A DNA stretch of 64,000 nucleotides, taken from NCBI GenBank assembly GCA_016214785.1, contig JACRNV010000005.1, positions 62,001 to 126,000 of the forward strand, read 5' to 3'. Below are positions 11,043-47,147 of this stretch, one piece after another. Numbering within the stretch: position 1 is the stretch's first letter; every line of letters starts with the position of its first letter. The stretch is from Methanobacteriota archaeon. GTDB lineage: Archaea > Thermoplasmatota > Thermoplasmata > SG8-5 > JACRNV01. The notes under the pieces are model-generated. The model was not told the DNA's origin. It made no database searches and saw nothing but the letters and a program-made list of their open reading frames with translations. A program made the translations under genes and the position numbers.

Positions 11043-12272
11043 GTGGGCGCAGTGCCATCGAAGGACTTTTCCGCGCTCGCGAAGGCCCACGACGACTGGC
11101 GCCTGAAGAGATGCATAAACCTCATACCATCCGAGAATATCATGAGCCCGACGGCCAGAGCCCTTCTTTCCTCGGACCTGGCGAGCCGCTACTCTCTCCC
11201 AATCAACGACGTCGTGCACGGCGCGTTCGTCGAGAACGCCTACCGCGGCACGCGCTATTCCGACGAGATTACCATATCGGCCGAGAGGCTGGCCTGCGAG
11301 GCCTTCGGCGCGCGGCACGTCTCGCTCGCGCCGCTCTCCGGGCACGTCGCAGCGATATTAATGCTCTCGGCGCTCTGCCGCAAGGGCGATACTGTCATGT
11401 CCCTCAGCTCGTCGGACGGCGGGTACGACGGGTACTGCAAAAAATATATACCAGACATGCTCGGGCTCGGGACGAGGTGCCTGCCATTCGACCAGTCGTT
11501 ATGGAACATAGACGTCGAGGCCGCGTGCGCGGCCATCCTCAGGTTCAGGCCGCGGCTCGTCGTGCTGGGCGCCAGCTACCTGCCCTTCCCGCACCCGGTC
11601 AGGGAGCTGTCGGAGGCGTGCGCCACCGCCGGAGCCTTCCTGGGCTACGACGCAGCTCATGTCCTGGGTATACTCCCAAGCTTCCAGCAGCCGCTTAGGG
11701 AGGGCGCGGACATCGTAGTTGCAAACACCCACAAGACATTCTGGGGCCCGCAGGGCGGCCTGGCGATGGCCAACGACCCCGAGATAGACCAGGCCGTGCG
11801 CCGCAACCTCACCTGGCGCACTCTGGATAACACGCACCTCAACCGCATCGCGGCGACGGGCCAGGCCTTACTGGAATACAAGAGGCACGGCAAGGCCTAC
11901 GCCGCGCAGGTCGTGAAGAACTCCCGCGCGCTGGCGGCCGCGCTCGACGGCGGCGGCTTTCCGGTGAGATTCAAGAAGCTCGGCTACACGCGCTCCCACC
12001 AGATCCTGCTGGGTATCGACGGGATGAAGAAAATGTTCCGCGCGGACAGCAACACCATCGCCAAGCGCCTCGAGAGATACAACGTGATAACCGATGCGGT
12101 CGGACGCCTCGGCACGCAAGAGGTCACGAGGATGGGGCTCAGGGAGCGCGACATGAAGGAGCTTGCGGAGCTCATTTTCATGGGCGCAAGCGGGGAGAAC
12201 ATCGGGAAAGGCGTGAGGGCGCTGAGAAAGAGGATGAAACTCTGCTACGTTCTGAAAAAGAGGGGAGACTGA
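11043..12272 (+). CDS. glyA: Serine hydroxymethyltransferase
   Basis: LIPSENIMSPTARALLSSDLASRY..., PLP site NTHKTFWGPQGG. Confidence 0.92.
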   Translation: MGAVPSKDFSALAKAHDDWRLKRCINLIPSENIMSPTARALLSSDLASRYSLPINDVVHGAFVENAYRGTRYSDEITISAERLACEAFGARHVSLAPLSGHVAAILMLSALCRKGDTVMSLSSSDGGYDGYCKKYIPDMLGLGTRCLPFDQSLWNIDVEAACAAILRFRPRLVVLGASYLPFPHPVRELSEACATAGAFLGYDAAHVLGILPSFQQPLREGADIVVANTHKTFWGPQGGLAMANDPEIDQAVRRNLTWRTLDNTHLNRIAATGQALLEYKRHGKAYAAQVVKNSRALAAALDGGGFPVRFKKLGYTRSHQILLGIDGMKKMFRADSNTIAKRLERYNVITDAVGRLGTQEVTRMGLRERDMKELAELIFMGASGENIGKGVRALRKRMKLCYVLKKRGD

Positions 12273-12278
12273 CATAAT

Positions 12279-13112
12279 TTGAGTGTTAAAAAGGACTATT
12301 GTTCCTATATTGCATTTCTTGATGTGCTCGGCTTCAAAGATATGATAGATAAGAACGAACATGATAAAATGAAAGAGATATATTCAACCAACCTGACATC
12401 TAATGTTAAAAGGAGTGTATCACCAGATTCAATACGCATGGTAAATAAAGATGGAAAGGAAGTATCACTTTCAGAATTGAATGAAACCCTAGTGAATTCA
12501 TTGATTATTTCAGATAGTATTATACTCTGGACTGATGACGATTCATCGGAGAGTTTTTTTAATATCATAAAAGGTGCAGGTATACTTTTAAGAAATTTTA
12601 TTATTGGGGGGTTACCGCTCAGAGGTTGTATTACATTGGGTGAATTTAGTCTTCGGTACAGTCAAATGAGATCGAATAGGCAGAATATTCAAATGACTAT
12701 ATTTGGTAAAGCCATTACAAATGCGTATTCCAAAACAGACATTCAACAATGGGTCGGATGCACAGTAGATAACGATGCTATAAAAAAATTTCGGGAATGG
12801 GAGAAAAAACATTCTACTATGTCGAATTTTGCATCAATTGAATGGTTTTGCAAATTGAAGCTTCTTGCTAGATATAAAGTTCCTTTAAAATATGGTCCTT
12901 TAGAAAAAAAATATGTCATCGATTGGATTTCAAACACCGAAATAACAGAAAGGATTATTCGAGAAGCATTCTCAAAACATAAAAAGACTGTAAATGATTG
13001 GGATGTTCGGTATAAGCTAGAAAACACAATCAAATTTTATCAATTCATCAAAATGAAGAAAACCCACATACAATATGATGCTTTTACACTTCGAGACGTT
13101 CCACCTAAATAG
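12279..13112 (+). CDS. Low-GC protein with a class III nucleotide-cyclase-like fold signature
   Basis: YIAFLDVLGFKDMI at N-terminus and RGCITLGEF...IFGKAITNAY; strongly lower GC than neighbours. Confidence 0.5.
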   Translation: MSVKKDYCSYIAFLDVLGFKDMIDKNEHDKMKEIYSTNLTSNVKRSVSPDSIRMVNKDGKEVSLSELNETLVNSLIISDSIILWTDDDSSESFFNIIKGAGILLRNFIIGGLPLRGCITLGEFSLRYSQMRSNRQNIQMTIFGKAITNAYSKTDIQQWVGCTVDNDAIKKFREWEKKHSTMSNFASIEWFCKLKLLARYKVPLKYGPLEKKYVIDWISNTEITERIIREAFSKHKKTVNDWDVRYKLENTIKFYQFIKMKKTHIQYDAFTLRDVPPK

Positions 13113-13189
13113 CCCCTGATGGCTGAGGTTTTTGACTACGTTAGGTGCAAAGCCGCACTTCGACGATTCGAGAATTGACAAGTAGAGCA

Positions 13190-13990
13190 TTATTTTTTAT
13201 ATCCAGCTTTCAGCTTCTTCACTCTCGTCCCGATGAGCTTCCTGATTTTTTCATAGCTCGGCGGCGGCCCGGTGCGCACGAACTTCCCGTCGATGAAAAG
13301 CGCGTCCGAGAGCCCCCATTCGCGCATCGTCGCCTTGTCCATCGTGCCTATCTCCGTGAAAACGACGGCGTCGCCGAACTCCGCGCTGGCCCGCTTCGCC
13401 CTTTCATAGACGATGTTCTGCGCCGGGCACCACCCGTTCACGAACGACGTGACCGCGACCTTCCCGGGCACCAGGACGGGCTTTCTCACTTGCTTGATCC
13501 ACCTCGGCGGCTCCGCATCGTCCGAGAACCGCTTCCAGAGCAGGACCGCGATGCCGTCCTTGTCCGCTTGCACATAACCGTGCTTCTTGAACCACGAGGC
13601 CTTCATCCAAAATGGCAGCGAAAGACCCCAGGCCGCGATGCCCTTGGCGCCGAGGGCTCTGGCATCCTCCTCCGCGGCATTCAGGAGCGCGGCGCCCATC
13701 CCGCGCTTCTGAAAATCGCCCCGTCCCTGCTTGTGGCCATGGACCCATATGCAGGAGATGAAGTAGAGCCCATCCCCTTCAACGTGGGAGCGCTCAATCG
13801 GGATGTACTGAATCATGCCGCCGACAACGCCATCGTCGTTGGCGGCCAGCTTCACCCTTAGGCCATTCTTTTCCATGGCCTTGAACCAGAGGTCCTTTTT
13901 ATTTCCCGCGTCTTTCATCTCGTCGGACCAGTCCTCGAGGCATTGGAGATAGAGAGAATAGGGCTCTGGAGCGAGGTCGAGGATTTTCAT
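13190..13990 (-). CDS. GNAT acetyltransferase with YoaP-like C-terminal domain
   Basis: QKRGMGAALLNAAEEDARALGAKGIAAWG; C-terminal thioredoxin-like/YoaP-like segment. Confidence 0.75.
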   Translation of the reverse strand: MKILDLAPEPYSLYLQCLEDWSDEMKDAGNKKDLWFKAMEKNGLRVKLAANDDGVVGGMIQYIPIERSHVEGDGLYFISCIWVHGHKQGRGDFQKRGMGAALLNAAEEDARALGAKGIAAWGLSLPFWMKASWFKKHGYVQADKDGIAVLLWKRFSDDAEPPRWIKQVRKPVLVPGKVAVTSFVNGWCPAQNIVYERAKRASAEFGDAVVFTEIGTMDKATMREWGLSDALFIDGKFVRTGPPPSYEKIRKLIGTRVKKLKAGYKK

Positions 13991-14011
13991 TGATGGCCCT
14001 CCACGGGCAGG

Positions 14012-14485
14012 TCACTTCTTCTTCCTTATCGGCACCTGGATGTTGGCGTATATTATCGTCTTCGCCCCCTCGACCGTGGGCTTCTTGGTGTATATCTCGA
14101 GGCACGGCCCCGAGCACTCGTAGCCGTTGGCCGCGACCCATTCCATAACCTTCCTGTAGGTCTCGGGGAACTCGGTGCCCGGCGCCTTGTGCTTTATGAC
14201 CGCGACCTCCATCTCGGGGAGTATCTTGACCTTAACGCCCTTCGACGGCACGGCCTCGCCCTTGAGGGTTATAGCGATTTCGCTCTTCAGCTTCTCGGGC
14301 GGGGTGACCTTGGGGTCGTCCGGGTACATTGCGAACGGGTGGAAGCCGGGCATCACCTTGTTCTCCTTCGCGAAGCCGTAGAGCTTGCCAATATATACAT
14401 CAAACGGTATCTTGTCGTACGGCCCCGTGTGCTCGACGTACGCGATCTTCGTTGCTTCCCTCTTCTTGACAACAATTTCCGGCAT
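14012..14485 (-). CDS. GyrI-like (effector-binding) domain protein
   Basis: KIAYVEHTGPYDKIPFDVYIGKLYGFA...EMEVAVIKHKAPGTEFPETYRKVMEWVAANGYE...EIYTKKP. Confidence 0.8.
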   Translation of the reverse strand: MPEIVVKKREATKIAYVEHTGPYDKIPFDVYIGKLYGFAKENKVMPGFHPFAMYPDDPKVTPPEKLKSEIAITLKGEAVPSKGVKVKILPEMEVAVIKHKAPGTEFPETYRKVMEWVAANGYECSGPCLEIYTKKPTVEGAKTIIYANIQVPIRKKK

Positions 14486-14507
14486 TGAATCCCCTCAGCG
14501 GGCAGAG

Positions 14508-14529
14508 CCCGCCAATGAACATTGGCGGG
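14508..14529. other. Strong hairpin upstream of the GyrI-like gene
   Basis: CCCGCCAATG-AA-CATTGGCGGG, 10-bp perfect arms. Confidence 0.6.
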
Positions 14530-14587
14530 AGGGATTAAGAACCTTTCCAATGGGGGGGCGAAACTACAAATAGAGTTTCTGAGAACC

Positions 14588-14688
14588 GTTTCGCTAGGAG
14601 ATTTACAGGAAAATCTCCGGCGAAACTACTCTGGATATTCACAGAAAACCGTTTCTATAGGAGAATCACAAGAGATTCTCCGGCAAAA
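14588..14688 (+). repeat. Dispersed hairpin family A, copies 1 and 2
   Basis: GTTTCGCTAGGAGATTT-ACAGGA-AAATCTCCGGCGAAAC (14588-14626) and TAGGAGAATC-ACAAGA-GATTCTCCGG (about 14658-14683); related copies at 46477-46570. Confidence 0.75.
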
Positions 14689-14783
14689 GTGCCCGAATGA
14701 GGCGTCGAGCGTCCAGAAACCGCCGGAATCTGCTCTTGAAATGCTTGAACCGTCCACAAGATGGCGGCGGTTCCCCGACCCTT

Positions 14784-16067
14784 TCAGAGCGCCAGCAGCT
14801 TCCGCGCCTGCCTTTCGGCTTCCTTCATTATTTTCGCCTCGTCGAAAGCCTTGAGCGCCCGTCCCCTGACGACGACCTTGCCGTCGACGATTACGTCCCG
14901 GACGTTCGCGCCGATGCAGGAATATGCCAAATTCGACACGAGATTGCCCGAATGCGTCGGTGCCATGTTCGGAGCGGTAATGTCGACAATTGCCAGGTCA
15001 GCGCGCTTCCCCCTTTCGATGGAGCCGATGGCCCTCTCCGCTCCGATGGCCCGCGCCGCATCTATCGTCGCCATGTCGAGTATCTCCTGCGCGTTCATGA
15101 CCGTAGCGTCCCACCGGTGCGCCTTGTGCGCCAGCGCGCAGAACTTCATCTCCTGGAACATGTCGAGGCAGTTGTTGGACGCGCTACCGTCCGTGCCCAA
15201 GCCTACGGGCACGCCTTCGCGGCGCATCTCCGGTACCGGCGCTATCCCACCGCTGGCCAGCTTGGCGTTCGACACAGGGCAGTGGGCGACGCCCACGCCG
15301 TTCTTCTTCAAGATGCGAATCTCATTGATTGTGAGCCAGACGCAGTGCGCGGCCGACAACCTGTCATTCAGGAAGCCAATGCCCTCCAGCCATGCGATGG
15401 GGCGCTTCCCCGTCTTCTTCTCGTGCTCGTGCACTTCGTACCTCGTTTCCTGGAGGTGCATGTGCAGGCCGGCGCCGTGCTCCTCTGCGAGGGAGCGCGC
15501 CCCAAGCAAGGTCTCCTCCGAACATGCATAAACCCCCTGGGGCGCGACCAGCGGCCTAACTAATGGGCTCGATTTGAACCGACTGATGAACCTGTCCGCG
15601 TTCTTCAGCGGGCTCCCCTTCTGGGTGGTCTTGTCGTCGTCGAGGACGGCCCAGCCGAGATGGCCCCTGATGCCCGTGGCCTCCACGGCCTCGGCGACGG
15701 CGTCCTCGTGGTAGTACATGTCCATGAAGGTGGTTGTACCCGAGAGAAGCATCTCGAGGCACCCGAGCATCGCGCCCGCGCGGACGTCCTGGCGAGTCCT
15801 GCGGGCGTCGACGGCGAATGTCCTGCCGAGGAACTGCTCGAGGTTCAGGTCGTCGGCCACGCCCTTCATCAGCGCCATTGCCGCGTGCCCGTGGCAGTTC
15901 ACGAGCCCGGGGATGACCGCGCAGCCGCTCGCGTCCAGTGTCTTCGCGCCCTTGATGGACTTGCCTATCGCTGCGATGCGCCCGTCCTCGATTAGGACAT
16001 CGGCCCGTAAAACATCCCTCTTCGGGTCCTGCGTGGCGACGAGGCCGTTCTTGATTACGAGGCTCAT
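14784..16067 (-). CDS. 5-methylthioadenosine/S-adenosylhomocysteine deaminase-like amidohydrolase
   Basis: VIPGLVNCHGHAAMALMKG...HLQET...GVGVAHCPVSNAKLASGGIAPV...GLGTDGSASNN. Confidence 0.88.
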   Translation of the reverse strand: MSLVIKNGLVATQDPKRDVLRADVLIEDGRIAAIGKSIKGAKTLDASGCAVIPGLVNCHGHAAMALMKGVADDLNLEQFLGRTFAVDARRTRQDVRAGAMLGCLEMLLSGTTTFMDMYYHEDAVAEAVEATGIRGHLGWAVLDDDKTTQKGSPLKNADRFISRFKSSPLVRPLVAPQGVYACSEETLLGARSLAEEHGAGLHMHLQETRYEVHEHEKKTGKRPIAWLEGIGFLNDRLSAAHCVWLTINEIRILKKNGVGVAHCPVSNAKLASGGIAPVPEMRREGVPVGLGTDGSASNNCLDMFQEMKFCALAHKAHRWDATVMNAQEILDMATIDAARAIGAERAIGSIERGKRADLAIVDITAPNMAPTHSGNLVSNLAYSCIGANVRDVIVDGKVVVRGRALKAFDEAKIMKEAERQARKLLAL

Positions 16068-46030: not shown

Positions 46031-46217
46031 GGGAATCGTAATTCCCCCTTGACCCCCTGGAAAGGATTTCATGACATAAAGCGGATGCGTTCAACTTTGG
46101 GAGGTGCTAAGGAGTATCGATCAAGGGGTTTGACTGCAAACCCCCTTGACCCCCAAAAGGATTTCATCACGGAATGCGGATGTGTTCAACTTTGGGAGGT
46201 GCTAAGGAGTATCGATT
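46031..46217 (+). repeat. Dispersed hairpin family B, copies 2 and 3 (tandem, about 95-bp period)
   Basis: GGGAAT-CGTA-ATTCCC (46031-46046) and GGGGTTTG-ACTG-CAAACCCC (46125-46144), each followed by CTTGACCCCC..AAAGGATTTCAT.AC and GCGGATGyGTTCAACTTTGGGAGGTGCTAAGGAGTATCGAT. Confidence 0.8.
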
Positions 46218-46384: not shown

Positions 46385-46476
46385 TTTGTCTCACCTCGGA
46401 ACAAGATAAGCGGGGGGAGTATAAAAGGCGGAACAGGGGAGGTCGCCGAAAGTTAAAATCTAGGCACTGAGATTCC

Positions 46477-46570
46477 TTTCGGTAGGAGAATGACATGACA
46501 TTCTCCGGCGAAACTAATATGGGTTTTACTGGTATTCGTTTCTCTAGGAGAATCACAAGAGATTCTCCAC
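46477..46570 (+). repeat. Dispersed hairpin family A, copies 3 and 4
   Basis: TTTCGGTAGGAGAATG-ACATGA-CATTCTCCGGCGAAA (46477-46513) and GGAGAATC-ACAAGA-GATTCTCC (46547-46568). Confidence 0.75.
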
Positions 46571-46590
46571 CGAAAGTGTGGGGGGTGTTC

Positions 46591-46767
46591 CTAACCCTTC
46601 CTCTCTCCCAATCCTTTGGCAATAAGAACCAGGCCGGATAGTATGAATATAATACCAGAGAGCAAGAAATATATATTTATATAGAGCCACGCAAATGAGA
46701 GGAGGGCGCCCACTACGGCGAACATTGCGCCGAAGCCCATTGCTGCCTTGCCTCCGGATTTACCCAT
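46591..46767 (-). CDS. Small membrane protein (58 aa)
   Basis: MGKSGGKAAMGFGAMFAVVGALLSFAWLYINIYFLLSGIIFILSGLVLIAKGLGERKG; two TM segments; below ORF-track cutoff. Confidence 0.55.
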   Translation of the reverse strand: MGKSGGKAAMGFGAMFAVVGALLSFAWLYINIYFLLSGIIFILSGLVLIAKGLGERKG

Positions 46768-46866
46768 GAACGACGGTAACGACTACGCTAATAATAATCT
46801 AACTAGAGGGGAATATTCAACCGTCTCAATTCCCCCCAAGACGTAGGAATGTTATAAGATAATAAG

Positions 46867-47090
46867 GAGGGTTACCAATTAGTAAGGTCTCGTTTGTAGC
46901 CTATATGAAGTCTCGCTAACGCAACAGAACCCTACCCCGTCGGATGACCGACGGCCTACAAATTAGAATCTACTAATTGGTAGGGAAAAGCTACTCATTA
47001 GTAACCAGAACCCTACCCCGTCGGATGACCGACGGCCTACAAATTAGAATCTACTAATTGGTAGGGAAAAGCTACTCATTAGTAACCCTC
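46867..47090. mobile_element. MITE-like element with terminal inverted repeats and two perfect 81-bp internal repeats
   Basis: 18-bp ends GAGGGTTACCAATTAGTA / TACTCATTAGTAACCCTC (16/18 inverted match), flanked by AATAAG at 46861-46866 and 47091-47096; internal 81-bp units at 46925 and 47006. Confidence 0.65.
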
Positions 47091-47147
47091 AATAAGAGAA
47101 GATTGTAAAGGATTTGTCGTAGTAGAGACGGTTGTTGGGCGTCTACG

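Follow-up and report, generated by a model that had tools for sequence, protein, structure and literature searches.

What is the 224-bp structure, bounded by inverted repeats and holding two tandem 81-bp units, that lies in the window (by which we mean the whole stretch of 64,000 nucleotides analysed here)? The original prediction proposed either a non-autonomous transposon or an attC-like folded substrate. The features on which it rested (Table 1) were all re-found in the sequence: the arms of the terminal inverted repeats (TIRs) are 18 nt long with 16 of 18 positions paired (89% complementary), the hexamer AATAAG flanks both sides, the two 81-nt units are 100% identical to each other, and the upstream stretch TACCAATTAGTA (46873-46884) is complementary to TACTAATTGGTA in both of them. 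The structure had also been said to lack coding capacity, and indeed none of the six frames of the 143-bp basic element described below holds an open frame for a transposase.

Table 1. Features of the element and its flanks, in window coordinates
Feature	Position	Strand	Remark
MITE copy as assembled	46867..47090	+	224 bp; true length probably 143 bp
Left terminal inverted repeat GAGGGTTACCAATTAGTA	46867..46884	+	
Right terminal inverted repeat, minus-strand reading GAGGGTTACTAATGAGTA	47073..47090	-	
Candidate target-site duplication, left copy AATAAG	46861..46866	+	6 bp; from the sequence
Candidate target-site duplication, right copy AATAAG	47091..47096	+	from the sequence
81-bp unit, first copy	46925..47005	+	
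81-bp unit, second copy	47006..47086	+	begins where a false join is suspected, after element nt 139-140
TATA-like stretch CCTATATGAAG adjoining the left end	46900..46910	+	by sequence comparison; putative promoter
31-nt stretch (GGTTCTGTTGCGTTAGCGAGACTTCATATAG...)	46902..46932	-	94% identity to the end of another host repeat that resembles IS6-family tips

Firstly, we searched the host genome, an assembly of 67 contigs totalling 2.18 Mb at 92% completeness, which among the genomes compared is the sole representative of its genus, the nearest ones belonging to other families. A lack of other copies would have counted against the original prediction by its own account; the search instead returned nine further loci that match at 100% identity along 136-141 nt, and the genome holds about ten near-identical copies, that of the window included. 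The contigs with copies include C20, C5, C45, C23, C11, C24 and C64; the window copy itself lies in the spacer between a leuD-like and an rpiA-like gene. Given nine additional occurrences in one genome, the observation is more than chance. Seven of the nine have one 81-bp unit only, and the basic element is therefore 143 bp long. As obtained from comparison of the copies, it contains one unit, reads GAGGGTTACCAATTAGTA ... TACTCATTAGTAACCCTC and has the ends GAGGGTTAC...GTAACCCTC. The common ends of the copies are sharp (GAGGG/CCCTC), the TIR ends are the same in the other copies, and the copies sit singly at unrelated sites, some of them in the intervals of converging or co-directional gene pairs. 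A partial, diverged relative on contig C47 has the right end only (93% over 55 nt). About 450 bp from this relative (L012:198-306 and 760-817, G000 C47) lies a tRNA gene, found as an Rfam hit and not called by ARAGORN.

Secondly, we compared the flanks. The direct repeats are AATAAG (6 bp) at the window copy and CGTTC (5 bp) around the copy on C64, so that the length of the candidate target duplication is not constant, and the matching AATAAG indicates that the two flanks of the window copy belong together. No target duplication was detected when the flanks of copy L002 were compared; six copies have lost their far end at a join. Dispersed identical copies, TIRs, candidate target duplications, the non-coding interior and the related ends of a transposase-bearing element (below) support the first half of the prediction, that the element is a non-autonomous transposon (MITE). 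The identity of the copies suggests a recent spread, and the family has apparently been active recently. MITEs are known from archaea, in Sulfolobus, Halobacterium, Haloquadratum and others (review PMC10969869). Like prokaryotic MITEs in general, the family is short, non-coding, TIR-bounded, multi-copy and foldable, and it would be mobilised in trans by a related transposase; unlike them, it matches no described sequence family, its mobiliser was not found in the host, and its candidate target duplication is of 5-6 bp.

Thirdly, we examined how far each copy follows the 143-bp element. Measured from the lower-coordinate side of the contig, the intact run is 140 (window), 140, 141, 139, 139, 139, 136, 139, 138 and 137 nt in L001 to L010. 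Beyond this run, six copies pass straight into the flank, their final element bases missing. Two re-enter the element, at a point 85 nt (window copy) or 88 nt (L002) short of its end; L007 continues with 49 Ns, and L009 meets the end of its contig. The intact side is the lower-coordinate side whichever strand the element is on, and a one-sided pattern of this kind in eight joined copies has a chance of 2 x 0.5^8 = 0.008. Since the break follows the direction of the contig and not that of the element, it is without biological meaning. The same distance recurs in longer repeats: contigs stop 140 nt inside elements that end in GGTTCTG, and an IS200-like repeat stands at some twenty contig ends, the contigs stopping mostly 134-142 nt inside it. 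From contigs that stop about 140 nt inside longer repeats we infer an assembly k of about 141, which the 143-bp element just exceeds; it would therefore have been left unresolved by the assembler and joined afterwards. In the window, the junction between the units falls at element nt 139-140. To judge from the contigs, the doubled 81-bp unit is thus probably an assembly product, the result of a false join near k-1 = 140 nt. The pair of perfect 81-bp repeats noted in the original prediction is present in the contig sequence and probably absent from the organism, its junction coinciding with the assembly break point. The existence of the element itself is untouched by the false join. Taken together, we consider it likely that the window element is one copy of a 143-bp gene-less MITE, moved in trans, whose second unit was created by an assembly join.

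The alternative that survives best keeps the same MITE and takes the contigs at their word: the window copy would be truly duplicated in its 81-bp right part, by slippage or recombination, L002 in its left part, and the others would truly have lost a few end bases. The window contig does read so, with no Ns and with the two flanking AATAAG hexamers in agreement, and duplications are found in two copies. Against this, the intact side is the lower-coordinate one in 8 of 8 joined copies in both orientations, and the break lies 137-141 nt from either element end, which is the distance at which contigs stop in other repeats. We hold a real duplication to be unlikely. A real truncation at one end of the six copies was likewise judged to be an artefact, the intact side tracking the direction of the contig and not that of the element. 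That doubled and one-end-trimmed forms are both real, as in a MITE family whose inner unit is gained or lost by breakage some 4 bp in from either end, appears very improbable. L004 and L005 suggested insertion exactly at start codons; we rejected this, as bases dropped at the join explain it better and the pattern is absent in L006, L008 and L010. In L005, the join deletes the start codon of a PRPP synthase gene, as seen against an archaeal relative in the PDB whose sequence begins one residue before, and this likewise speaks for a false join.

We also looked for an enzyme that could move the 143-bp MITE. Allowing at most 1 mismatch, we found the TIR pattern GAGGGTTACYAATTRGTA in 4 genomes among the 399 of the class, and all four belong to the order of the host. 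In a relative (G002), the pattern bounds a 4,352-bp stretch (11167-15518) whose other end, inverted, reads GAGGGTTACTAACGAGAA, with TTTTG (5 bp) directly outside both ends. This element encodes a 486-aa transposase with DDE_Tnp_1 and DUF772 domains (Pfam E 6e-16), together with four further ORFs without a confident Pfam match. The nearest NCBIfam model of the transposase is IS1182, at 89.5 bits, which is far below the family cut-off of 270. A nested insertion sequence around the transposase gene was considered and rejected, no inverted repeats being found. We regard the 4.35-kb element, on the strength of its ends and its transposase gene, as a candidate autonomous relative or partner of the MITE. 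It is like IS1182-like DDE transposons in that its DDE_Tnp_1 + DUF772 protein has IS1182 as best NCBIfam model, and unlike them in its low score, in its size and additional ORFs, and in the host being without a match. In the host genome, at 92% completeness, neither a match to the G002 transposase nor an autonomous element with the MITE ends was found, and the three DDE_Tnp_1 genes of the host were discarded as mobilisers, having no matching ends. For the match of the TIRs to an autonomous transposase that the original prediction called for, there is a candidate in G002, with related ends and a 5-bp duplication, and none in the host sequence searched. Exact pattern scans of the genome-contig and viral-contig collections gave no matches, nor did P0001 against plasmids. 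In another genome, G006, a similar left end immediately precedes a type IIG-like restriction-modification gene; a search for its right end found none. This MITE-like left end and the gene, which encodes a 1123-aa Eco57I/MmeI-like protein, occupy L083:154-3579 (G006 C140).

The ends have a shared layout, GAGGGTTAC, an overlapping TACYAATTRGTA, then TTTGTAG or TTGGTAG, followed at the left end by the TATA-like box; in G002 and G006 the ends show the same TATA-like layout. We take TACYAATTRGTA and TTTGTAG, both subterminal, as putative transposase-binding motifs and the TATA-like box as a putative promoter. We propose that the 143-bp MITE, with its 18-bp imperfect TIRs, would depend for its movement on a transposase acting in trans and producing target duplications of 5-6 bp; this enzyme would be a DDE transposase like that of G002, IS1182-like, binding the subterminal TACYAATTRGTA and TTTGTAG. 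By eye only, a motif like ACAAAACNNNGTAC is seen near AT-rich, TATA-like stretches by several insertion sites (right flanks of L002 and L007; L033:235-270 in G002; L083:130-150 in G006), and it may be a regulator-binding site.

The TATA-like box beside the left end and the position of the similar G006 end, directly upstream of a restriction-modification gene, would also suit a dispersed regulatory repeat, operator plus promoter, that is no transposon. Sharp common ends with candidate target duplications, insertion at unrelated sites, some between genes that converge or run in the same direction, and the transposase gene carried by the G002 element all speak against it, and we give this reading little credence.

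The original prediction had also stressed a cloverleaf-like fold. Folded as DNA, the 224-nt strand reaches z -6.3 against shuffles. One 81-bp unit folded as RNA reaches z -4.7 and forms the proposed junction. The diverged C47 copy breaks 3 of the 6 pairs in the AATTAG/CTAATT hairpin, with no compensating changes, and has no closing arm; the inner fold is thus apparently not kept, one diverged copy being thin evidence. The element shares with integron attC sites an imperfect palindrome foldable on one strand; it differs from them in its single dispersed copies outside any cassette array, its candidate target duplications and a fold that is not conserved in the diverged copy. The idea that the unit is selected for its folded form, as an attC-like single-strand recombination substrate or a structured three-way-junction RNA, is scarcely credible even though each unit folds as proposed, given the broken C47 pairs, the absence of a meaningful match to any Rfam family, the absence of a cassette array around the copies, and arms made largely of motifs common to the G002 and G006 ends, whose interior is unrelated. 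The attC half of the prediction thus has no support, and the 143-bp MITE is retained.

Other repeats were noted along the way. Other host repeats have GGTTCTGTTGCG tips, which by eye resemble IS6-family tips (as in PMC7986276), and the 31-nt stretch within the MITE is similar to them; unlike IS6-family ends, that stretch is internal to the MITE, corresponds to a single end and does not mark the MITE boundaries. A repeat with such an IS6-like tip (GGTTCTGTTGCGTTCGCGGGACTT...) occurs in at least 2 copies (L013:1502-3031, G000 C25; contig ends C16 and C61, L014 and L015). After the tip come a DNA methyltransferase-like gene and a possible restriction gene; the repeat may represent a mobile module for restriction-modification. 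Four contigs (G000 C66, C57, C39 and C32; L094-L097) end in a second element, whose tip is GGTTCTGTTGCGTTGACGGGACTT, each of them 140 nt inside it. Within the window, another dispersed repeat (46420-46610) has four further partial matches in the host genome (80-89% identity), and two degenerate 62-nt copies occupy 46466-46589. Two 61-nt direct repeats, 92% identical and 95 nt apart, lie at 46061-46216, between an rpiA-like gene and the MITE.

The MITE family is new; the kind of element is ordinary and already known. The window copy also carries a warning: where a repeat slightly exceeds the assembly k, false perfect tandem repeats and false truncations that resemble biology can result. For a little-studied archaeal order, the analysis adds a MITE family for which a relative harbours a candidate autonomous partner.
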